A DNA stretch of 59,560 nucleotides from Opitutia bacterium (GTDB lineage Bacteria; Verrucomicrobiota; Verrucomicrobiia; Opitutales; Seribacteraceae): positions 1 to 59,560 of the forward strand of contig JABGWU010000154.1 in NCBI GenBank assembly GCA_018645475.1. The letters run 5' to 3'. The stretch's first letter is position 1. Each line of letters starts with the position of its first letter. Below the pieces are notes generated by a model that had not been told where the DNA came from, did not search any database, and saw only the letters and a list, made by a program, of their open reading frames with translations. The translations under genes were made by a program, and so were the position numbers. Below, piece after piece: positions 3,747-23,118 of the stretch.

Positions 3747-4568
3747 CTATGAATTTGGATCGATAATCCAGCCAAATTCGTCCTCCCTAATCCACCCTTT
3801 CTTTTTTCCATCGGCACTGTTTGCGAGATACCATGTTTTCCCATTCGCTATTTGGTGAGATTTACTAACTCCGTCATTTCCGAGTCGAATGATAAGGCTT
3901 TCTCCGGGAAGAATATTTGTATTTGCCGAATTCGATTCTCCTGCAAATCGTCTAAGTGGAATTGTTTTGGAATGATTATTTTCAGTTTGTGGAAAGTGCA
4001 CGATAACTTCTCGGTAGAGTTCAGATTGTTGCTGCAAGGATAGACAAGCGGCAAAACAAGATAGTAAGCAACTAATTACCCAGCAAATTGTGAAATATAA
4101 GAAGGTTTTTTTGCTCGTTTTAAAAAAGAAAATATAAAATAATATGAGTAAGCCTGTCCAAAAAATAATGGCACATATTATAATCCAAAAAGATAGAAAA
4201 TTTGCAGAAAAATAATTACTTGCAAAACTTTGCATTGGTGGAGGCATTTTCGCCATTTCATAAGCGAAATTTAAATTTGCAGAAAGTTCAGTATCTCTAG
4301 GATTAAGAAGTAGAGCTTTTCTGAAATGTAATATTGAATGTCCATATTGTTCTTTTTTGAAATAAAGATTCGCCAGGTTTCCGTGCAAATTTGCAGAATG
4401 AGAAAGAGTTGATGCTTCTAGGTAAAGATTAATTGCTTGATCTAAGTCACCAGCAGCCTCAGTCCGGACAGCATCATAAAATAAACGATCTTCCTGTCCC
4501 CCTGCACATTGTGATCTTAAAATGAAGGCACAAATGAAAATACAATACAATTTGATCGTAAGCTTCAT
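3747..4568 (-). CDS. batE: BatE-like TPR and SH3-like membrane protein
   Basis: Last gene of the bat operon, 273 residues. It has an N-terminal signal or membrane segment (KLYCIFICAFILRSQCAG). Two to three TPR-like helix pairs follow (DLDQAINLYLEASTL, ANLHGNLANLYFKKEQ, ILHFRKALLLNPRDTEL), then two closely spaced transmembrane helices and a C-terminal SH3-like segment (KTWYLANSADGKKKGWI). This order, TPR then membrane pair then SH3b, is that of BatE proteins. Its ATG overlaps the batD stop as ATGA, so translation is probably coupled. The family is tied to envelope stress and aerotolerance in Bacteroides and Leptospira, but its molecular role is unsettled. It converges on dnaX with only 20 nt between the stops and no hairpin. 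Confidence 0.85.
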   Translation of the reverse strand: MKLTIKLYCIFICAFILRSQCAGGQEDRLFYDAVRTEAAGDLDQAINLYLEASTLSHSANLHGNLANLYFKKEQYGHSILHFRKALLLNPRDTELSANLNFAYEMAKMPPPMQSFASNYFSANFLSFWIIICAIIFWTGLLILFYIFFFKTSKKTFLYFTICWVISCLLSCFAACLSLQQQSELYREVIVHFPQTENNHSKTIPLRRFAGESNSANTNILPGESLIIRLGNDGVSKSHQIANGKTWYLANSADGKKKGWIREDEFGWIIDPNS

Positions 4569-6398: not shown

Positions 6399-8801
6399 TC
6401 AATAGTCTCTTCCTGAAGTTATAGATTGAACGGCTTCAACCTCTTGTTCAAGGGGTTCACTTTTCGATTCCATTTCTTGAAGAAGCCTTTCGTACAGTGC
6501 ATTAATCTCTTCAGGTAGAGGTTGTGGTTCTGCATTTTCGTTATCTTCTTGATCCTCAGGCGGATTTGGTTGAGGTTGGTTTTGTTGGCTTGAGGAATTT
6601 TGATCTTGTTGGTTGTTGTCCTGAATCCCGAAATCGAGGTTTTCAGATTTAGATTCAAAATCAGTCCATACCAAATATGCTTTATTTTCTTCTATCGGAA
6701 AGGTGATATTTGCATCTGGGTTTTGCGGTTGAATACAAACGGAGTATTGGCCCGGGGGAACAGGCTGAGCAAAAGATCCATCTTCAGCCGGTTCAAATGC
6801 TGTCTCGTTTTGATCATATTGGAAGTTCCCATTTTGATCTAAGTATAATTTTGCTGATACATATTGTTTATCTTCAGGGTCTTTTGAGCCATTACCGTTT
6901 TCATCTTTCCACACTTGACCTTTAATAATGGGAGCTGCCCTGTATGGCATTCCTATAACTTTTTCGCCTGGTTTGTTGAGGTCTAGGTAATAGTTTTTTA
7001 CAAATGAAGGGTTTTCTGGGGGTGGTGGAGGCGGCAGCATTGGCAAAAGAAACGAATTTTGGGACTGGTTAGATTCAGCAAGTTTTGTTCCGAGTCGAAT
7101 TGAGGTCGGGTACTTGTCGGATATCCATTCAAATGAAAAAATACCTTGGTCATTACTTTGAATAATGGGTTCCGAGGTTTTATTGTGTTCGCCATTTTCA
7201 TCTTTATCCCAGTACACATAACCTTGTAGGTCGGGTTCAACTTCCTGTGGTTTTCCATCGCCATTTATGTCCCGCCAAATCTTTCCCGAAATTTTACAAA
7301 TCAGGGCATTGATCCTTTCTTGAATTTGCTTATTTAGAGATTCTAAGTTTTGTTTTGCTTTAACATTGCCGTCGATGAGGGATGAAGATTCATAATATTT
7401 GATTGATTGTTCCCAAGCTTTTCTAGCCTCAGCTATATTTCTTTCATCTAAAAATTTATTTGCCCTAATATAATATATATTACCCAATCCATTTAGAGCT
7501 TTTGCTTGGATAGCCGGATCATCTAAATTGGCGTCTAGTGAGACTTCCAAAGATTCTTCGGCATTTTGTAAATTTCCAGCCTGTAAATCAGCCAACCCTG
7601 CGTTTAAAAATAATCGCGGGTCCGTCGGATTTCCAATAGATATTGTTGCATTTATCTCAGCTTTGAAAAATTCAGCGGCTTGGGCAGGATTTCCTGATTC
7701 CAATGCTTCCTCCGCTCTCTTAACATTATCCTGCTTAAGACATCCTGAAAAGTAGAACAACAGAAAGATCGTACAAACGCTTACACTATGTGACAATGTC
7801 TTTGATAATTTTGAAGTAAGCATTTCAAGGCATAAAAAAAGAAAACCAACAAATACAAAAAAACTGTATCGATCGATAGGTAATTTTGTGGATAGTTGCT
7901 CTCGCTTCTTTTGCTGTCCAATGGACTGAAGGATTCCTAAGACTTTCGCTAAGCCTTCTCCAGTGGGACCCAGCGAAAAATATTTTCCTTGAGTCGCATC
8001 TGCGATAGCTCGTAAAGAACTTTCGTCAAGTTTCGTTATTACAGTCTGACCTTGAGGGTCACGAAGAAAGTTTCTGGCTGGTTGTCCGAGCGAGTCCATT
8101 GGGATTCTTGATCCTTCTTTTGCTCCAATTCCAATGGTGTAAATTTTTACACCATCTTTGGCAGCTTCTTTTGCTTGTTTCAATCCCTTGCCCTCAAGAT
8201 CTTCCCCGTCCGAGAGAAGGATTAAAAAGCGATCTGTATCATCTTTGGAGAATGAATGAATTGCCTCTTCAATTGGCCTAGAAATATCTGTCCCTGGTTG
8301 CTTAATTATGCCAATTTGTAAATCGTTGAGAGTTTTAGTGAATGCCTGATGATCCAAGGTTAGCGGACACTGGAGGAAGGCAGACCCGGAGAAGGCAATT
8401 AAACCGAGGCGGTCTCCCTCAACTCGATCGAGCAGATTACTAATACTTAATTTTACTCTTTCTAAACGGTTTGGACGGACATCTCTTGCAAGCATACTTT
8501 TAGATACATCCAATGCTATCAGAATATCAATCCCAGATGGTTGTGCTCTCCGCCTTTCAGACCCCCATTGCGGGCGAGCAAGACCAAGAAAAAGAAAAGT
8601 TATGCCAAGTACAAATAAGCAGAGTTTTAGAATTTGCTGCTTAAACGACAAATTCGGGGTGAGCTTCGGGAGTAATTGAAATGATGTCAGTAATTGAAGT
8701 CTATTTTGTTTGATTTTTTGACTCCAATAAAAAACCGCAAACAAACCAATTATTGTGCTTAATCCAATAAGTAAAATGTTTTGATTTGCAAAAAGGTTCA
8801 T
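6399..8801 (-). CDS. batB: BatB VWA protein fused to TPR (BatC-like) and SdrD-B-like repeats
   Basis: An 800-residue fusion. Residues 1-80 hold two transmembrane helices and the LARPQWG motif common to BatA and BatB. Residues about 88-280 are a von Willebrand A domain with an intact MIDAS (ALDVSKSM, PGTD, LLSDGED). A third membrane helix (SFFVFVGFLFLCLEML) follows, then a fourth that ends in a lipobox-like FYFSGC near residue 355. About 355-500 is TPR-like, equal to a BatC. Near residues 505-560 and 625-700 are two SdrD-B-like units, each opening with a calcium-loop motif (DINGDGKPQEVE; DENGNGSKDPED). The tail is rich in Gln, Asn, Pro and Glu. The start at 8801 overlaps the batA stop as ATGA. 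An upstream in-frame start at 8876 would overlap batA by 79 nt and is less likely. Confidence 0.9.
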   Translation of the reverse strand: MNLFANQNILLIGLSTIIGLFAVFYWSQKIKQNRLQLLTSFQLLPKLTPNLSFKQQILKLCLFVLGITFLFLGLARPQWGSERRRAQPSGIDILIALDVSKSMLARDVRPNRLERVKLSISNLLDRVEGDRLGLIAFSGSAFLQCPLTLDHQAFTKTLNDLQIGIIKQPGTDISRPIEEAIHSFSKDDTDRFLILLSDGEDLEGKGLKQAKEAAKDGVKIYTIGIGAKEGSRIPMDSLGQPARNFLRDPQGQTVITKLDESSLRAIADATQGKYFSLGPTGEGLAKVLGILQSIGQQKKREQLSTKLPIDRYSFFVFVGFLFLCLEMLTSKLSKTLSHSVSVCTIFLLFYFSGCLKQDNVKRAEEALESGNPAQAAEFFKAEINATISIGNPTDPRLFLNAGLADLQAGNLQNAEESLEVSLDANLDDPAIQAKALNGLGNIYYIRANKFLDERNIAEARKAWEQSIKYYESSSLIDGNVKAKQNLESLNKQIQERINALICKISGKIWRDINGDGKPQEVEPDLQGYVYWDKDENGEHNKTSEPIIQSNDQGIFSFEWISDKYPTSIRLGTKLAESNQSQNSFLLPMLPPPPPPENPSFVKNYYLDLNKPGEKVIGMPYRAAPIIKGQVWKDENGNGSKDPEDKQYVSAKLYLDQNGNFQYDQNETAFEPAEDGSFAQPVPPGQYSVCIQPQNPDANITFPIEENKAYLVWTDFESKSENLDFGIQDNNQQDQNSSSQQNQPQPNPPEDQEDNENAEPQPLPEEINALYERLLQEMESKSEPLEQEVEAVQSITSGRDY

Positions 8802-9859
8802 GGAATCCGTAAGAATATGGTTTTGGCCAAAATAAATTCTAGAAAAATAAGAATAAGTGCCAATGCAAGAGACCATTGGAACAGTTCCTCAAAAATAATA
8901 TTCACATTTAATTCAACTTTTGTTTTTTCAAGCCGATCAATTTCATTGTAAATAGATGCGAGTTCGCTCTTATTTTTTGCCTCGTAAAAACGGGCATTGC
9001 TAGCGTTAGAAACTTTTTGAAGAATTTCTTTATCAACGGGATAGTCCGCAACTTGAACAACAGGTTTTCCATTCGCATATCGCATTAAATCTCTAGATCT
9101 TTGATCAAATAAATAAGTTCTTGTCCTGGTCGCAGTTCCTACCGCAATGGTGTAGATTTTAATATTATCACTTTTTGCTCCCTCCGCATAAATTAATGGG
9201 CTATGGGGTGGGGGAGGTTCGTCTTTTCCATCCGTAAGTAAGATGAGGATTTTCGATTTTGATTCCAATGTTCTCAATCGATTTATTCCTTCTGCTAATG
9301 CAGAACCAATGTTTGTACCTGTCTGGTGAGTCAATCCCACCCGTAGTCTATCAATATTTTTTTGTAAGTGTTCTTTATCTAATGTAAGTGCACTCACGAG
9401 GTAAGGGTCTACTGAAAATGCAACGAGTCCAATTCGGTCGTGTTTTCTTTTTGCGACAAAATCTTTGATCACTCCTTTAACCACATCTAGACGAGTAATT
9501 TCAGCTTTTGGGTCTTCACTCATATCGAGAGCCAGCATGGAAGCTGATAGGTCGATCGCTAGTACAATATCTACTCCGCTGGTAATAATCGAACTTGTAC
9601 TCCGGTCAAATTGTGGTCGTGCCAAAGTAAGAGTTAAAAAGATGAGGGAGAGGCATCTTAAGGATTTAAGAATTACTTGAGAATAATTACTATTTTTAGT
9701 AACGCTTTTTTTAATTCTTGAAAGCGTGGGAAAAAGAAGAGTTGAATCTTTCATATCCCCCTTTTTTTGAATCCATAAAATAATTGGAATAACGAGAAGT
9801 AAAAAAAGCCACAATGGTTCGGCTAAATGAATTTTTTGCCAGTCTTGCCAGTATTCCAT
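8798..9859 (-). CDS. batA: BatA von Willebrand A membrane protein
   Basis: A 353-residue partner of BatB. The N-terminal membrane helix (LWLFLLLVIPIILWIQKKGD) is followed by a second helix and LARPQFDRS. The VWA domain carries a complete MIDAS: DIVLAIDLSASMLALDM supplies DxSxS, GLTHQTGTNIG the threonine and ILLTDGKDEP the aspartate. A single helix near the C-terminus (WSLALALILIFLEFILA) anchors it. In BatA proteins the MIDAS face is thought to bind metal-dependent protein ligands across the inner membrane. It begins 6 nt after the upstream DUF4381-like stop and overlaps batB by 4 nt. Its C-terminus contains the batB start codon. Confidence 0.93.
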   Translation of the reverse strand: MEYWQDWQKIHLAEPLWLFLLLVIPIILWIQKKGDMKDSTLLFPTLSRIKKSVTKNSNYSQVILKSLRCLSLIFLTLTLARPQFDRSTSSIITSGVDIVLAIDLSASMLALDMSEDPKAEITRLDVVKGVIKDFVAKRKHDRIGLVAFSVDPYLVSALTLDKEHLQKNIDRLRVGLTHQTGTNIGSALAEGINRLRTLESKSKILILLTDGKDEPPPPHSPLIYAEGAKSDNIKIYTIAVGTATRTRTYLFDQRSRDLMRYANGKPVVQVADYPVDKEILQKVSNASNARFYEAKNKSELASIYNEIDRLEKTKVELNVNIIFEELFQWSLALALILIFLEFILAKTIFLRIP

Positions 9860-9865
9860 TATAGT

Positions 9866-10468
9866 TTATGATTGAACTTTCGAAGAAACATTTTCTGCTT
9901 CTTCAAGCTTTTCGTGGGTATCTTTTACAAAATGCAATGCAGTATCCATAAGCAGATTCATTTGACCAGAATCTGAATCTTCTTTGGAATATTTTATACG
10001 GTCACCCTGTTCAACAAACTCCTGAAGTATTTTATCATACCTATTTTGAAAAAAAGTATGGGATGCTATTTCCCTCATGAATTCTTCTCCGGTTAACTCC
10101 ATTGCGGGTACTTTGAAAACTCTTTCAACATAAATTCTTAATATTTCCGATAATCTAAAAACAAAAGGTTTAGCAGAAAGTGCAGGATTTTGGTTTTGCA
10201 ATGATTGTATATTTAACAGTGCATCCTCGTATGGGTCAGTGGGTTCAGTTTCTGGTTCATTTGATTCATCTTTTCTCTTTTTCTTCATTAATAGAATCAG
10301 AAGTAAAACAGTTATAATTATAGAAATAGTTATAACTATGAGCAATTGGTTTTCTTTGATTAATTGCGAAAAGCTTTTAAAAATTGGAATGGGTATGTCT
10401 TCTTCTCTTTTCGAATCGAGCAGGTATGCCTTGTTTGTTATGAAATCAATATTTTTCATAGTTATCAC
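9866..10468 (-). CDS. DUF4381-like single-pass membrane protein of the bat operon
   Basis: A 200-residue protein that sits where other moxR-bat operons encode a DUF4381 protein, between DUF58 and batA. The short extracytoplasmic N-terminus contains PIPIFKSF. One strong transmembrane helix (LLIVITISIIITVLLLILLM) follows, then a basic stop-transfer KKKRKDES and a cytosolic helical domain with FVFRLSEILRIYVERVFKVP and MELTGEEFMREIA, matching the helical pattern of that family. The first start, GTG at 10468, overlaps the DUF58 stop as GTGA; an ATG at 10459 is the alternative. The family name rests on position and pattern, so it is held less firmly than its neighbours. Confidence 0.75.
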   Translation of the reverse strand: MITMKNIDFITNKAYLLDSKREEDIPIPIFKSFSQLIKENQLLIVITISIIITVLLLILLMKKKRKDESNEPETEPTDPYEDALLNIQSLQNQNPALSAKPFVFRLSEILRIYVERVFKVPAMELTGEEFMREIASHTFFQNRYDKILQEFVEQGDRIKYSKEDSDSGQMNLLMDTALHFVKDTHEKLEEAENVSSKVQS

Positions 10469-11397
10469 CCTTTTCGGTTTCCTCTTAAATGGAAGAACTC
10501 TCTTAGAGTTTTGACATAATCTGAATCAGTTGAAAATTGAAAGTTATCAATGCCTCTCCTGCGAAGTCTACGAATAAAACTCTCTTGTATCTTTTCGGTA
10601 TGTTCTTTGTATTGATTTCTGAAATCTTTATTTGAAGAGTCCACAATAATAGTTTCTCCCGTTTCAGCATCCTCTAAATGAACTCTTCCCACATTTGGGA
10701 AATCCTTTTCAATCATATCATGGATTTGACAACAAACTAAGTCGTGCCTTCTTCGAGTAGTAGATAGTTCCTTTAGGAATATATTTTCAACTGTTTCTTC
10801 AACCGAATCATATTCAGGTATGATAAAATCAGATAATAGAAAAACAACCGCCCTTCTTCTCATTACGCGGTTCAAAAACCTAAGGCCTTCATTTAGATCA
10901 GTTCCTTTACTTTCGTTTTGATGAAAAAGAATATCTCTCAGAATGCGAAGGACATGCTTTTGACCCTTAGCAGGAGGTAGGTATTTTTCAATTTTGTCTG
11001 AGAAAAGAAGCAATCCAACTTTGTCACCATTTCGGTTTGCCGAGAAGGATAAAAGAGCACCTAGTTCGGCTAATCTTTCTCTTTTGGTTCTGCCTTTAGA
11101 TCCCCAAACCCCACTATTACTGATATCAATTGCGAGTAAAATGGTTAATTCTCTTTCCTCTCTGTATTGCTTTACGAAGGGGATGCCCATTTTTGCAGTA
11201 ACATTCCAGTCGATTGATCTGACTTCGTCGCCAGGTTGATATTCTCTGACTTCTTCGAAGTCGATGCCTTGTCCCTTAAATGCACTATGATAAGAACCAG
11301 CTAATGCCTCGGATACGAGTCGATTGGAGCGAATTTCAATTTGCCTTACCTTACGAAGTATCTCTCTGGTAAACTCCTGATCCAGTTCATCCATCAT
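10465..11397 (-). CDS. DUF58 domain protein (VWA-like MoxR partner)
   Basis: A 310-residue soluble protein of the DUF58 family, which contains a VWA-like fold and is almost always encoded beside MoxR AAA+ ATPases. The hallmark block is present: GSYHSAFKGQGIDFEEVREY, then DEVRSIDWNVTAKMG and VKQYREERELTILLAIDISN. The DISNS sequence stands where a MIDAS DxSxS would be. It opens 43 nt after the moxR stop and its stop overlaps the next start by 4 nt. By family precedent it acts with MoxR as a chaperone-like or metal-insertion/activation pair for the membrane VWA proteins BatA and BatB; that role here is inferred. Confidence 0.93.
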   Translation of the reverse strand: MMDELDQEFTREILRKVRQIEIRSNRLVSEALAGSYHSAFKGQGIDFEEVREYQPGDEVRSIDWNVTAKMGIPFVKQYREERELTILLAIDISNSGVWGSKGRTKRERLAELGALLSFSANRNGDKVGLLLFSDKIEKYLPPAKGQKHVLRILRDILFHQNESKGTDLNEGLRFLNRVMRRRAVVFLLSDFIIPEYDSVEETVENIFLKELSTTRRRHDLVCCQIHDMIEKDFPNVGRVHLEDAETGETIIVDSSNKDFRNQYKEHTEKIQESFIRRLRRRGIDNFQFSTDSDYVKTLREFFHLRGNRKG

Positions 11398-11440: not shown

Positions 11441-12460
11441 TTAAGGTACAGGAACCGTTTCAAAAATCTTTTTTATGATGTCATCACTTGAAACATTTTC
11501 TGCTTCTGCTTCGTAGCTAACGATGACCCTGTGCCTAAGAACATCTAATCCAATATCTTTGATGTCTTGAGGTGTTACAAAACTACGGCCTTGCATGTAG
11601 GCAGATGCTTTTGATGCCAGGGCTAAACTAATTGTTGCTCGAGGAGATGCTCCGAAGCGAATAAATGCACTGAGTTCAGCAGCTCCGTAACTTTCAGGGT
11701 TTCTAGTCGCAAGTACTACATCCACTAAATATCCTTTAAGTTTCTCGTCTAGATATATACGGTCAATCGATTTTCGAGAGTTAAAAATTGTTTCAGCGTC
11801 AACGACAGGGCTGACTTCATGTTTTACTGAAACATTAGCATTCGAGTCTAAAATTTTAAGTTCATCATCTCGGTCAGGGTAATCCACTAGAAGTTTCAGC
11901 ATAAAACGATCCATTTGAGCTTCTGGTAGTGGGTATGTGCCTTCTTGATCAATAGGGTTTTCTGTAGCCAGGACTAAAAACGGTTGAGGTAATATAAATG
12001 TTTCGTCTCCAATAGTTACCTGTCTTTCTTGCATTCCTTCAAGCAGAGCACTCTGAACTTTCGCCGGTGCTCTATTAATCTCATCAGCTAAAAGAAGATT
12101 TGTAAATATCGGTCCTTTTTTAGTAGTGAATTCTCCTTTATTTGGACTGTAAATTAATGTGCCAACCACATCTGCCGGCAAAAGATCCGGAGTGAACTGA
12201 ATCCTTTTAAACTCTGCTTTCATACATTGAGCTAGTGTTTTTACAGCTAATGTTTTTGCAAGTCCAGGCACACCTTCCAGGAGGACATGTCCATTTGCCA
12301 ATAGACCGATGATTAATCGGTCCACAAGATATTTTTGGCCGACAATTACTTTTCCTATTTCTTGTTTCAGTAATTCAACCCATGCGGCTTCACTTCTTAT
12401 TCTTTCTTGTTCTTCCGGTGCAGGTGGTTGGACTATTTGTTGAGTTTGATTTGAGGACAT
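11441..12460 (-). CDS. moxR: MoxR-family AAA+ ATPase
   Basis: A 339-residue AAA+ ATPase that heads the bat operon. Walker A is GVPGLAKT, Walker B with the following block is LLADEINRAPAKVQSALLEGMQE, sensor 1 lies in FLVLATENPIDQEGTYPLPEAQ, and sensor 2/lid residues are in FGASPRATISLALASKA. These are the standard MoxR signatures. The N-terminal tail (SSNQTQQIVQPPAPEEQE) is low complexity. MoxR proteins act with VWA and DUF58 partners in folding, metal insertion or stress tolerance. The ATG has no evident Shine-Dalgarno sequence. The gene is divergent from the CHASE2 cyclase across 162 nt, which must hold both promoters. Confidence 0.95.
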   Translation of the reverse strand: MSSNQTQQIVQPPAPEEQERIRSEAAWVELLKQEIGKVIVGQKYLVDRLIIGLLANGHVLLEGVPGLAKTLAVKTLAQCMKAEFKRIQFTPDLLPADVVGTLIYSPNKGEFTTKKGPIFTNLLLADEINRAPAKVQSALLEGMQERQVTIGDETFILPQPFLVLATENPIDQEGTYPLPEAQMDRFMLKLLVDYPDRDDELKILDSNANVSVKHEVSPVVDAETIFNSRKSIDRIYLDEKLKGYLVDVVLATRNPESYGAAELSAFIRFGASPRATISLALASKASAYMQGRSFVTPQDIKDIGLDVLRHRVIVSYEAEAENVSSDDIIKKIFETVPVP

Positions 12461-12622: not shown

Positions 12623-15600
12623 ATGTTCAAACTAAGTAAAGAATCAAAATTAACATTTATGTGTTTACTCGTTATTCCTTTTATCTGGATGATAGTGAAT
12701 CACCGCGGCTATATAGATACTTGGAAGACTAAATCCTTGGACTTGCGATTAAGTTCAGATTTGCCGGGTGCACGTGGAGAGATTGTACATAATAATAATT
12801 CTGAAGAGAAAATTATTGTAGAGGGTAATAAATCGATACCAAAGATCCCCAAAGTCGTATATGTGAATTTTGATGCCGCTACTCTATCTATGGATGATGT
12901 TGGGGAAAGGCCTTGGGATCGTGCATTTTTTCGAGATATGTCGATGGCATTAATGGAAAAAGGTAGAGCGCGAGTAATAGCATTTGACTTCGGTTTTACG
13001 CCCAAAAGTATGTCTAAAATGGTTCCTAAAGAAAATTCCTATCGCAGTGATTCCGCAATGGGAGAGTTAATAAGGGCATATCCAAATCAAGTCGTTCTTG
13101 GTTGTCTGTATTCGGGAGTCCCGACTCCATTTGTAAAGGCAACAGGGGCAAGTGCTTTTCCCCCACTATTTAAAGATGGTTATTCTATTGAAGCTGCAAG
13201 AAATAGTGGGTCATATAATTACCCTGAATCACCGACTTACCCTCTTCAAAATTATCTTGATGGTCAGTATCTTGGGCGAACAGGATCCTTTACCGTTCCT
13301 CCATATCGTTACGGTTTTCCGGGCGAGGGTAAACCTGCAGTGGACAATGTTCCTCGATGGGTTCCTTTATGGTTTCCGGGAGGAGGTAAAGCTCACGCTT
13401 ACAATTTGTTGGGAGGCAAGCAAAGCAAATTACCTTTTGAAATGCTGTTAGAAAATTTAGATGAGCACGCTGTGCTTGTTGTGAATCTTAAAAACTTTAC
13501 TGATCAAAAAGAAAAACTTATCGAGGAAATTACTTCGATTAAAGCTCAGATTCTCGAGTATAGTCGAAGAAAAAGTAAGGTTGAAAATTTATATAACAGC
13601 CTTTTGAAGGAAAATTCTGATTATAAGGAGATCGAAGTAGGTATTAAGAATTTTATCGCTACTTTAGAGGCAAACCCATCATTAGGTGCAATTATAACTC
13701 CTCAATTAGAAGCAAGAAAAAAGGACATGAATAAATTCCTTAATGGCTTGTTTGCCAAATCTAAAAAAAGGCCAGGCGGAACCAATGATTCGAATCTGCT
13801 CAAGAAGAATTTAAAAGAATTAGAAAGTATTGTTTCAAATTTAAAGGTGACGCTTTCTGCAAATCCATCCCTTTCAGCTGTTATTAAACCGCAAATTGAA
13901 TCAAAAGAAAAAGATATTTTGGTAATTAAGGAGAAATTAGAAGCTGCCACTTTTAATATCGAAAAATTTGAAGCAGATTTAAAGGAATTAGAAAGCACAG
14001 TATCAAATTTAAGAACCGCGTTAGCTTCAAATCCAGCAATTGCAGGAGTTATTCAACCCCAAATTTCCGCAAAGGAAGAACAAATTAAAGCTGCTCAAAC
14101 AAAAATACAAAAATTTAAAGATCAAGAAGATTTTACATTATCCTCAACGCAGGAAAACGCTCTTATCGAGAACTTGTTAAAAAATGTTCAAATCCAAAAG
14201 AAGGTTCTTGATGAAATTAATAATGATTTACTTGTTTTTACAAATGAGGAAGAAAAACTTAGTAAAGTGTTAAAAAAAATAACATCAGACTTGTCGCTCA
14301 CATCAGAACGAATCGCTCAACTTGAAGGAAAGTCTCCCACTGAGTTAGTTGAAACGAACAGTACCCTGCGTTTAGTCTACAAGCGCGATGCAGGAGATGA
14401 GGGTGAGGGTAGGTTAGTTGATTCTTTTCCTAATGAAGTTCCTTTATTTCGGGACCGTGCGGTTTACACTTTAGGAGTTGAGTCGTTGTTAGCTTACTAT
14501 GGATTGGATGAAAAGAATGTAAGAGTTTCCGAGGACAACTTACGCTTTTTGATTTCGGATAATGCTGGAGAAACTTTAATCGAAGCACCTCTGGAAGAAA
14601 AGCAATTCTTAGAGGTCAACTGGTTTTCTAGTTGGTCTGAAAAATCGCCCGAAAAGATTTTAGTTATGGAAGCCAAAAGAGCTTATGGGGAAGAAGATTT
14701 CAATTTATATATTTCTTTAGTACCCCAAATCTTTGAAAAGTTTCTAGCAAAAGTAAAAAATTATGAACTACCCAAAAGTATCGATGATTATCCATCATCA
14801 ATGCAAAATTTAGGTTTGGATAATAAGGTCGTTGAAATTGCTAGAAAACTATTGTCGGAAAGATTACCAAGAGAAGAAATCCCCTCATTCGATCAGTTAA
14901 TGTCTGTGATTGAAGCTATTTCCTATTATTTTATACCATCCTCGCTTGATTCTAATTTTAATCCAATGTGTGGAATGCGTGATGTGATTCAAAATAGTCG
15001 TTTCTTGGATCAAGTAGAATCAACAATCACCTCGATAACAAAACAAATTGAAAAATTGGAGGGACCCACTGTATTAGGAGCGATTAATAACGCCTTATTG
15101 CAAAATCCGGAGAACGGCAAGTTGCTTGCTCAAAAAAAGCAAGTTGAGGATGCCATTTTAACCAATAAAAATAACCTAGCAGTCCAAGAAGATGAGCTTT
15201 TTAGAATAAACGAGTTCTTCTCCCGTTTTGAAAATGCAATTATACTTGTAGGTCCAGAGGAAGCGACTTTTCAGGATTTAGCTCCCACACCTTTTGATAA
15301 ATCTGCGTCCCCTAAAGTTGGGGTACATGGTAATTTAATAAAAACATTAACTTCAGGTTTTTATATCAAGCGCCTAAGTATCGAGGTTGACCATGCAGCA
15401 ACTTTAGGCGTCGGGGTAATTATGGCATTACTTGCTGTTTATCAGGGGGCTCGATCGAGCTGGGTCCAGGCAGGTGGCATTATCTTACTTTTAGGATATG
15501 TATTCTTTGGCTTTATTACATTTTCAAATACACATGTTGTTTGGCCCATTACTGCACCTGCATGTGCTGGTATAAGTACTTCTTTTATAGGCCTCGCGGT

Positions 15601-16570
15601 TATGGTTGTTATCGAGCAAAAAGCAAAGGGTCGCTTGAAAGGCATGTTTGGTAGTTATGTTTCTTCGGAATTAGTGGAGCAGATGGTTGAATCTGGTGAA
15701 GAGCCTTCGCTGGGTGGGCAGGAAACTGCAATCACAGCCTTCTTTAGTGATGTTCAGGCATTTTCAAGCTTTTCCGAGCTTCTTAGTCCGACCGGTCTAG
15801 TTGATCTAATGAATGAGTATTTAACTGCAATGACTAATATCTTGCAGGAAGAACGGGGGACTTTGGATAAGTATATTGGTGATGCAATTGTTGCCATGTA
15901 CGGTGCTCCGATACCCATGGATGACCACGCTTATCAATCCGTTAGGACCGCTATTTTGATGCAGCAGGAACAAATTAAATTGAGGGAGAAATGGTCCCGT
16001 GAAGAAGAAAAATGGGGGAAGTGCCATGGATTAGTATCGAAAATGCAAACTCGTATAGGTTGCAATACTGGTACAGCAACAGTCGGAAATATGGGTGCAC
16101 TAGATCGGTTTAATTACACCATGATGGGAGATATGGTCAACTTGGCTGCTCGTTGTGAGAGTGGAGCAAAAGCATATGGAGCTTATATAATGATCACCGA
16201 AGAAACTATGTTGGCATCAAAGCAAACTCAGGATGACATTGCATTTCGCTACTTGGATAGAATCGTCGTGAAAGGTCGTAAGCAACCAGTTGCAATGTTT
16301 GAACCTACTGGCTTTATGTCAGAGTTAACACAGGAAACGCAAGATTGCCTTGATTGTTTTAAGCAAGGAATTGACAATTATTTAAAGCAGGACTGGGACG
16401 GTGCTTTGGGAATGTTTGAAAAATCAAAAGGGTTTGAGCCAAACAAACCCGGAATTACCCCTGGAGTAGTTGATAATCCATCCATTATTCTCATCGACCG
16501 ATGTAAAATAATGAAAGAAAACCCTCCTGGCAAAGATTGGGACGGTGTTTATGTTATGACATCAAAGTAG
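12623..16570 (+). CDS. CHASE2-sensor class III adenylate/guanylate cyclase with coiled-coil insertions
   Basis: A 1315-residue membrane cyclase, about twice the usual CHASE2-cyclase length. One N-terminal membrane helix (FMCLLVIPFIWMIVNH) leads into a CHASE2 domain (PKVVYVNFDAATLS, RPWDRAFFRDMSMAL). This is interrupted by a coiled-coil region, about residues 290-560, and by a second helical insert, about 655-865, before the CHASE2 end (AIILVGPEEATFQDLAPTPFD). Three membrane helices follow, then the catalytic domain. AFFSDVQAF and LDKYIGDAIVAMYGAP supply the metal aspartates and the purine-specifying lysine, while FNYTMMGDMVNLAARCE gives the second specificity position and the transition-state Asn and Arg. 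The residues favour ATP as substrate, hence cAMP. A TPR-like tail follows. It is divergent from moxR and ends 3 nt from the convergent redoxin stop. Confidence 0.93.
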   Translation: MFKLSKESKLTFMCLLVIPFIWMIVNHRGYIDTWKTKSLDLRLSSDLPGARGEIVHNNNSEEKIIVEGNKSIPKIPKVVYVNFDAATLSMDDVGERPWDRAFFRDMSMALMEKGRARVIAFDFGFTPKSMSKMVPKENSYRSDSAMGELIRAYPNQVVLGCLYSGVPTPFVKATGASAFPPLFKDGYSIEAARNSGSYNYPESPTYPLQNYLDGQYLGRTGSFTVPPYRYGFPGEGKPAVDNVPRWVPLWFPGGGKAHAYNLLGGKQSKLPFEMLLENLDEHAVLVVNLKNFTDQKEKLIEEITSIKAQILEYSRRKSKVENLYNSLLKENSDYKEIEVGIKNFIATLEANPSLGAIITPQLEARKKDMNKFLNGLFAKSKKRPGGTNDSNLLKKNLKELESIVSNLKVTLSANPSLSAVIKPQIESKEKDILVIKEKLEAATFNIEKFEADLKELESTVSNLRTALASNPAIAGVIQPQISAKEEQIKAAQTKIQKFKDQEDFTLSSTQENALIENLLKNVQIQKKVLDEINNDLLVFTNEEEKLSKVLKKITSDLSLTSERIAQLEGKSPTELVETNSTLRLVYKRDAGDEGEGRLVDSFPNEVPLFRDRAVYTLGVESLLAYYGLDEKNVRVSEDNLRFLISDNAGETLIEAPLEEKQFLEVNWFSSWSEKSPEKILVMEAKRAYGEEDFNLYISLVPQIFEKFLAKVKNYELPKSIDDYPSSMQNLGLDNKVVEIARKLLSERLPREEIPSFDQLMSVIEAISYYFIPSSLDSNFNPMCGMRDVIQNSRFLDQVESTITSITKQIEKLEGPTVLGAINNALLQNPENGKLLAQKKQVEDAILTNKNNLAVQEDELFRINEFFSRFENAIILVGPEEATFQDLAPTPFDKSASPKVGVHGNLIKTLTSGFYIKRLSIEVDHAATLGVGVIMALLAVYQGARSSWVQAGGIILLLGYVFFGFITFSNTHVVWPITAPACAGISTSFIGLAVMVVIEQKAKGRLKGMFGSYVSSELVEQMVESGEEPSLGGQETAITAFFSDVQAFSSFSELLSPTGLVDLMNEYLTAMTNILQEERGTLDKYIGDAIVAMYGAPIPMDDHAYQSVRTAILMQQEQIKLREKWSREEEKWGKCHGLVSKMQTRIGCNTGTATVGNMGALDRFNYTMMGDMVNLAARCESGAKAYGAYIMITEETMLASKQTQDDIAFRYLDRIVVKGRKQPVAMFEPTGFMSELTQETQDCLDCFKQGIDNYLKQDWDGALGMFEKSKGFEPNKPGITPGVVDNPSIILIDRCKIMKENPPGKDWDGVYVMTSK
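13640..14110 (+). repeat. heptad-phased coiled-coil repeats inside the cyclase CHASE2 domain
   Basis: Three related units share the pattern ANPSLxxVIxPQIExKEK: residue 350 onward (EANPSLGAIITPQLEARKKD), residue 413 (ANPSLSAVIKPQIESKEK) and residue 469 (SNPAIAGVIQPQISAKEE). Units two and three also share LKELES(I/T)VSNL upstream, at 13811 and 13979. The spacing is 63 and then 56 residues, exactly nine and eight heptads, so the coiled-coil phase is kept. A weaker relative, QNPENGKLLAQKKQVEDA, occurs near residue 827 in the second insertion. The Asn-Pro step probably marks a turn between antiparallel helices. Confidence 0.75.
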
Positions 16571-22275: not shown

Positions 22276-23118
22276 TTAAAATGGTTGAATCGCTCTTTTT
22301 CTAGCCAGTAATATCAACCAAATTCCCCCTAGTATTAGAAAGAAAGAATAAAATTGTCCCCTTGACATTCCTACAATTAATGATGCGTCCGGTTCTCTGA
22401 AAAATTCATTAAGGATTCTTGATAACGAATAAAGAATTAAAAACTCTCCTGTTAATTGTCCTGGTTTTTTTATTATTAAATCCGTTTTCCAAAATCTCCA
22501 CTGAATGTAAATAAATGGAATTAATCCTTCAAGAACTGCAGCGTAAATCTGAGACGGGTGCCTAGCTATACCGTAAGCGAAATCTGGTGCTTTGGGAAAG
22601 AGGATTCCCCATGAAACCTCAGTTGTTTTCCCCCAAAGTTCCCCGTTAATAAAATTTGCGATTCTGCCAAAAAAAAGTCCTGGAGGAACTATAGTTACAA
22701 TTAAATCGCCAATCGGAAAGGGGGATTGCTTGGATTGTCTCGCGTACCAAAGAGTGGCAATGCAGACGCCAATAAAACCGCCATGACTAGCCATTCCTCC
22801 TTCCCAAACTCTAAATATTATTAATGGGTCATCTAAGAATTTTGAGCCTTGGTAGAGCAACGCGTATCCAATTCTACCTCCCATTAATACCCCTAATATT
22901 TGAAATGTCATGAGATTCATAACTTGTTCGGGGTCATAAGGACTTTTTTCTCTCTTCCACGCAATGCGGAGCAGGAATGCTGCAGTTAAAAATCCAAGTA
23001 AGTAGGCAATGCCATACCATCTGATTCCACCTGGACCCCAAGTGTCGTAAGGCTCGGGGAATTGCCATAAGAATGGACTTAGGTCATGGGTCCAATATTC
23101 TGTCAGACTTATTTTCAA
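22276..23118 (-). CDS. lgt: prolipoprotein diacylglyceryl transferase
   Basis: Inner-membrane enzyme that transfers diacylglycerol from phosphatidylglycerol to the lipobox cysteine of prolipoproteins, the first step of lipoprotein maturation. It has 280 residues with seven or so hydrophobic segments. The catalytic-region motif GGMASHGGFIGV is present, as are the family signature GRIANFINGELWG and the RHPSQIYAAVLEG block. The TTG start overlaps the stop of the upstream CNNM gene as TTGA, so translation is likely coupled. Likely substrates in this window are the two small lipobox proteins at 49.7 and 58.6 kb. Confidence 0.96.
   Translation of the reverse strand: MKISLTEYWTHDLSPFLWQFPEPYDTWGPGGIRWYGIAYLLGFLTAAFLLRIAWKREKSPYDPEQVMNLMTFQILGVLMGGRIGYALLYQGSKFLDDPLIIFRVWEGGMASHGGFIGVCIATLWYARQSKQSPFPIGDLIVTIVPPGLFFGRIANFINGELWGKTTEVSWGILFPKAPDFAYGIARHPSQIYAAVLEGLIPFIYIQWRFWKTDLIIKKPGQLTGEFLILYSLSRILNEFFREPDASLIVGMSRGQFYSFFLILGGIWLILLARKRAIQPF

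Follow-up and report, generated by a model that had tools for sequence, protein, structure and literature searches.

The open reading frame at positions 6399–8801 of the window, that is, of the whole 59,560-nucleotide stretch of DNA analysed here, is a batB–batC fusion gene within a complete, standard MoxR/Bat operon of an Opitutales genome. The BatC part of the fusion carries two SdrD_B-type units, and the segment joining it to BatB ends in an internal lipobox. A batB–batC fusion as such is ordinary, being common in Opitutales and already known in Leptospira biflexa, whereas an SdrD_B insertion in a Bat locus and an internal lipobox are, as far as the searches go, undescribed. The family-wide sequence pattern suggests that the fused chain is likely to yield BatB and a BatC that would become lipid-anchored after lipidation of Cys354 and a cut by signal peptidase II, with the SdrD_B pair serving as a calcium-binding spacer.

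The MoxR/Bat operon and the fusion gene

The operon lies on one strand in the following order.

11441–12460, minus strand: MoxR AAA+ ATPase (AAA_3 match, 2.9e-65)
10465–11397, minus strand: DUF58 protein (domain match, 8.8e-68)
9866–10468, minus strand: 200-aa protein with a single transmembrane (TM) helix, without any Pfam family
8798–9859, minus strand: batA (open reading frame list and domain searches)
6399–8801, minus strand: batB–batC fusion, 800 aa plus stop codon
4565–6394, minus strand: batD (Pfam BatD, 8.3e-16)
3747–4568, minus strand: batE-like TPR protein with two TM helices and an SH3-like tail (named by inference)

The 200-aa protein between DUF58 and batA is probably a subunit belonging to the Bat operon. 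The fusion gene starts with the ATG at 8801, overlapping batA by 4 bases, and stops at 6399–6401; the single intact frame of 800 codons reported in the preliminary description is thus present. A longer reading of 825 aa, whose start falls inside batA, is unnecessary. On the plus strand, positions 12623–16570 of the window encode a 1,315-aa open reading frame that resembles a CHASE2-type adenylate cyclase and has a long repetitive coiled-coil-like insert in its sensor part.

Residues 1–328 of the product correspond to BatB and contain a complete MIDAS motif. The following elements are recognised in this part.

8727–8777, minus strand: TM1, residues 9–25 (hydrophobic stretch, predicted from sequence)
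8577–8633, minus strand: TM2, residues 57–75 (hydrophobic stretch), followed by a conserved ARPQ
8115–8528, minus strand: VWA domain, residues 92–229 (Pfam VWA_2, 1.6e-15)
7818–7862, minus strand: TM3, residues 314–328 (hydrophobic stretch)

The MIDAS elements of the VWA domain are DVSKS at residues 98–102, GTDIS at 170–174 and LSDGED at 196–201. The NCBIfam model BatB_Lepto matches residues 17–326 at 1.4e-39, and its score of 136 bits lies below the Leptospira-specific cut-off of 350 bits, a shortfall expected in another phylum. The two N-terminal TM helices, the VWA domain with MIDAS, the C-terminal TM helix and the adjoining batA in a moxR operon are all those of a BatB protein. The VWA domain of a Borrelia Bat protein has been shown to be periplasmic (PMC5700661), which fits the periplasmic topology proposed here for the VWA domain.

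The BatC part consists of a TPR domain, the SdrD_B-type units described below, a linker and a C-terminal motif.

7317–7739, minus strand: TPR domain, residues 355–495 (NCBIfam BatC_Lepto, 4.5e-8)
6507–6617, minus strand: Gln/Asn/Pro/Glu-rich linker, residues 729–765, like the linkers of fused and unfused BatC
6402–6512, minus strand: BatC-type C-terminal motif EEINALYERLLQEMESKSEPL...SGRDY, residues 764–800 (family alignment)

The BatC_Lepto match covers residues 392–495, and the Pfam TPR match is weak. The TPR part is modelled by AF2 with pLDDT values mostly of 75–92 and matches folds of three TPR repeats with Z scores of about 15–16, suggesting that it resembles three-repeat co-chaperone TPRs. 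BatC is otherwise an exported TPR protein with a low-complexity linker encoded after batB; here it is fused to BatB. The VWA, BatB_Lepto and BatC_Lepto matches agree with the BatB and BatC identities first proposed from the sequence. The C-terminal end has equivalents (...DW, ...NW or ...KDY) in fused and unfused BatC. In other Opitutales families, the linker of fused BatC is disordered and rich in Gln, Lys and Glu and ends in ...DW, and the same is true of unfused BatC. The Gln/Pro/Glu-rich tail singled out in the preliminary description is present and is ordinary for BatC. The short C-terminus of BatC (...DW, NW or DY) and an upstream helix of the EEAxxLLxxLxxxE type are kept, although the linker is not.

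A search with the BatC part was positive in 38 of the 42 genomes of the window's family, and the four negative genomes are drafts with an estimated completeness of 60–91%. Each of the four genera of the family has the same architecture, at 42–85% identity and nearly always as a single open frame of 800–880 aa with no internal stops. The source genome is a fragmented draft, and so batB, batC and an adhesin fragment might have been joined by an assembly or sequencing error. The probability of such an artefact is negligible; the same joins occur in dozens of independent genomes of the four genera and in two separately deposited records (L032 and L033), and the family survey rules it out. Two draft genomes have two copies each of the fused gene (C8 and C3 in G016; C28 and C38 in G035), reflecting either duplication or a mixed draft.

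The junction between BatB and BatC

A fourth hydrophobic segment (TM4) connects TM3 of BatB with the TPR domain of BatC.

7740–7817, minus strand: internal lipoprotein-type signal peptide, residues 329–354, with the n-region TSKLSKTLSHS, a hydrophobic core and a lipobox extending to Cys354

The codon of Cys354 is located at 7740–7742, at the end of the lipobox-like peptide FYFSGC already pointed out in the preliminary description. Cys354 is invariant in the 38 distinct family sequences and is preceded by Gly in 36 of them and by Ser in the other two, whereas the 20 positions preceding it have a mean identity of 36%. Conservation is lower at the other cysteines (34/35 at position 145, 30/37 at 689 and fewer elsewhere). 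The constancy of Cys354 amid drifting neighbours makes it probable that the lipobox still functions as a signal and is not a relic. A basic n-region, an h-region, an invariant Cys and a small residue at position −1 are all found at residues 329–354. The residue at −3 is often Phe (FSGC), and the window sequence departs from the strict rule of Leu, Val or Ile at this position; a protein with an atypical −3 residue, Ycf48, is lipidated in another bacterium (PMC8038367). A simple-pattern scan of the open reading frames of the window for other lipoproteins gave none by which the local preference at −3 might be calibrated. The genome encodes lspA and lgt, the latter at 22309–23037 of the window. 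In E. coli, Asp next to the lipoprotein cysteine causes retention in the inner membrane. The residue after Cys354 is never Asp, and so this rule, which may not apply in this phylum, predicts no inner-membrane retention of the lipoprotein.

Unlike in standard lipoproteins, this signal is internal rather than N-terminal. In one genome (G033; L060:1460-1640), the same segment is N-terminal: batB stops just after TM3, and batC is a separate open reading frame with a GTG start and the lipoprotein signal peptide VNTKLVSRSFFIFLILSGC. The split between the two genes lies exactly between TM3 and TM4 and hinges on a single additional A in a homopolymer A run, and so it may be either real or an assembly error. 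In many sequences of the family, an in-frame codon ATG, GTG or TTG lies close to the n-region, where G033 has its GTG, raising the idea that BatC arises additionally, or even mainly, from initiation inside the fused gene, with the fusion being only partly translated through. This is very unlikely because such a codon is missing from 8 of the 38 sequences and its position is unconserved, and neither a conserved internal start nor a Shine–Dalgarno-like site for a separate BatC is seen in the fused genes of the family.

In sister families with unfused genes, batC starts at or near the stop codon of batB and opens with a signal peptide ending in an AxA-type site, such as LSA, ATA, GEA, ASA or AIA, and the C-terminus of the unfused BatC matches that of fused BatC. 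In the fused genes of other families, TM4 is preceded by basic residues and has an AxA-type end in 52 of 52 cases under a loose rule; 50 of the 52 combine Ala at −1 with a −3 residue that is small or aliphatic, compared with 37.3 expected from shuffled windows. The junctions of batB–batC fusions across the phylum look alike. These features are suggestive of processing by type I signal peptidase in the other families. The argument stays at this level since a coarse weight matrix for signal peptidase I did not distinguish the ends of TM4 from those of TM2 in the same proteins; the TM2 ends carry a conserved ALARPQ, which itself fits AxA and accounts for this result. As to the view that a separate lipoprotein gene once encoded the TPR part, the signal peptides of unfused batC and the separate open reading frame of G033 agree with an origin as a separate exported protein, but the lipobox is probably not the remnant that this view implies.

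TM4 could also be a plain anchor in an uncut polypeptide, in which BatC and the SdrD_B units stay attached to BatB and form a rigid arm in the periplasm; lipidation of Cys354 without cleavage is conceivable in this case. The single open frame in nearly all of the 38 carrier genomes, the length fixed near 800 aa and a consistent topology are in line with an uncut chain, but neither the invariance of Cys354 and the preceding Gly or Ser within a drifting segment nor the Ala kept at the matching place in other families is explained by it, and an uncut chain is considered rather unlikely. Cleavage at the internal signal peptide is therefore the preferred reading of the junction.

The SdrD_B-type units and their origin

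Residues 503–728 make up a pair of SdrD_B-type units that are homologous to each other and together have four conserved acidic loops.

6933–7295, minus strand: SdrD_B-like unit 1, residues 503–623, with two acidic loops and a Pro-rich strand (profile–profile match to unit 2)
6618–6932, minus strand: SdrD_B-like unit 2, residues 624–728, with two acidic loops (PF17210 in family members)
7236–7271, minus strand: acidic loop 1, DINGDGKPQEVE, residues 511–522; D511 and E522 in 31/31
7170–7208, minus strand: acidic loop 2, DKDENGEHNKTSE, residues 532–544; D532, N540 and E544 in 31/31
6870–6905, minus strand: acidic loop 3, DENGNGSKDPED, residues 633–644; D633 in 31/31, E or D at position 12 in 31/31
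6804–6839, minus strand: acidic loop 4, DQNGNFQYDQNE, residues 655–666; D655, G658 and E666 in 31/31

No Pfam family matches unit 1 directly, and profile–profile comparison relates it to unit 2 with an E value of 2.7e-11. The window protein matches PF17210 (SdrD_B) over residues 629–692 with 22–23.5 bits (E=2e-4), below the Pfam gathering cut-off of 29.7, and a PF17210 search of its own genome at E 0.001 gave no match. PF17210 is matched by each of the 31 full-length sequences of the family at E<=0.01, the best at 1.8e-12, and the sole match of the family profile in the PDB is Staphylococcus aureus SdrD (3.6e-6). The matches across the family agree with the SdrD_B-like units announced in the preliminary description, and the two EF-hand-style peptides named there are found, but the loops number four rather than two. 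Asp at position 1 is invariant in all four loops, and the closing residue is Glu throughout in three of them and Glu or Asp in loop 3; loop 2 has 13 positions rather than 12. The units share with the B domains of S. aureus SdrD (PF17210; PDB 10ps, 8vdk) the WxDxNxDGxxxxxE opening loop, the second acidic loop and the PGxY ending. The similarity is remote, and in contrast to SdrD, the window protein has two units only and is a Bat protein with no LPXTG or SD repeats, not a cell-wall adhesin. AlphaFold with a three-sequence input, run on residues 355–800 and 496–738, gave a good TPR part and a mean pLDDT of 32 for the SdrD_B units alone, too low for these models to be of use.

Three bound calcium ions stabilise Sdr B domains and set their stiffness (PMC6232131), and hence it is plausible that the two units here bind calcium and form a stiff spacer. 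The units could instead be decayed Ig-like spacers kept for their length, with no calcium role and interchangeable with InlB-type repeats. In agreement with this, divergent InlB-B repeats (PF18998) occupy the same linker slot in three sister families (L037, L039 and L040), with four copies each in L039 and L040 (f8 and f21) and at least one in L037 (f7), and most families have just a disordered linker, so that no specific calcium role applies across families. However, the ligand-type residues of the four acidic loops are kept in essentially 31 of 31 family members, down to 39% identity, which speaks against a role in length only, and a spacer without calcium is unlikely. These comparisons indicate that the slot between the TPR domain and the C-terminal motif has taken up beta-rich repeats on more than one occasion.

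Elsewhere in the order, matches to the SdrD_B module are almost all in open reading frames of 1,100–4,250 aa away from the Bat locus, and no other Bat locus with the module was seen among 335 genomes of the phylum. The likeliest origin of the module is therefore an adhesin-type protein, from which an ancestor of the window's family captured it. A scan of viral contigs found no further SdrD_B relatives, and a search of plasmid records gave VWA matches only, covering about half of the query. Adhesin-type B repeats in a Bat complex, which had appeared unfamiliar at the outset, are indeed confined to the window's family in the genomes searched. The fusions of other Opitutales and Verrucomicrobiota (for example L036, L039 and L040) are alike in BatB, the junction, the TPR part and the C-terminal DW motif, but their TM4 has an AxA-type end rather than a lipobox, and in the genomes searched their linker is disordered or InlB-B (PF18998), never SdrD_B.

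A model for maturation and its significance

The fused gene would have arisen by loss of the stop between batB and batC, with BatC's own signal peptide being retained as TM4. On insertion of the chain, its VWA and BatC parts would come to lie in the periplasm; Lgt would lipidate Cys354, and signal peptidase II would cut before it, giving equal amounts of BatB, the inner-membrane VWA partner of MoxR, and lipid-anchored BatC. Calcium is abundant in seawater. The two SdrD_B units, placed in the usually disordered linker of BatC, would bind periplasmic calcium and become a stiff spacer from the TPR domain to the flexible C-terminal tail. This tail, whose conserved end is likely a docking motif, would probably dock on a partner. 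The calcium-stiffened arm on the Bat complex envisaged in the preliminary description is consistent with SdrD_B units having conserved acidic loops, but it would more likely project from the released, lipid-anchored BatC than from a continuous BatB. The balance of the evidence leans towards a wider picture, in which Verrucomicrobiota BatB–BatC fusions would be polyproteins that mature through a cut at an internal signal peptide. Signal peptidase I would act in most families, and in the marine family of the window, lipidation and signal peptidase II would give a lipid-anchored BatC with the SdrD_B pair as a calcium-set spacer.

The cytochrome b/c1 precursor encoded by Bradyrhizobium japonicum fbcH is cut at an internal signal peptide. 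Likewise, it combines a membrane protein and an exported protein in one chain split by a signal peptidase, but the proteins are unrelated and the enzyme is type I, whereas the lipobox here would require signal peptidase II. A bacterial polyprotein with an internal lipobox was not found in the literature searched, which is not evidence of absence. The L. biflexa fusion similarly joins the BatB VWA membrane protein to the BatC TPR part in a Bat locus, but adhesin-type domains are not reported there, and no phenotype was found for L. biflexa Bat (PMC3557215). The MoxR/VWA pairs NorQ/NorD (PMC9976466) and RavA/ViaA (PMC3893208) are described as chaperones or cofactor-insertion machines. The stress-linked Bat membrane complex may be an envelope chaperone or assembly factor driven by MoxR; such a role has been put forward before for Bat and other MoxR/VWA systems.

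The existence of the fusions points to a joint requirement for BatB and BatC at equal levels, and the invariant internal lipobox suggests a membrane-anchored BatC in the window's family. If the model is true, an internal signal peptidase II site would be an unusual means of obtaining two proteins from a single gene. Beta-rich repeats have come to occupy the BatC linker repeatedly, as SdrD_B in one family and as InlB-B in three, which suggests that the reach from the TPR domain to the C-terminal motif matters, and this reach is a testable clue to how the Bat complex spans the periplasm.
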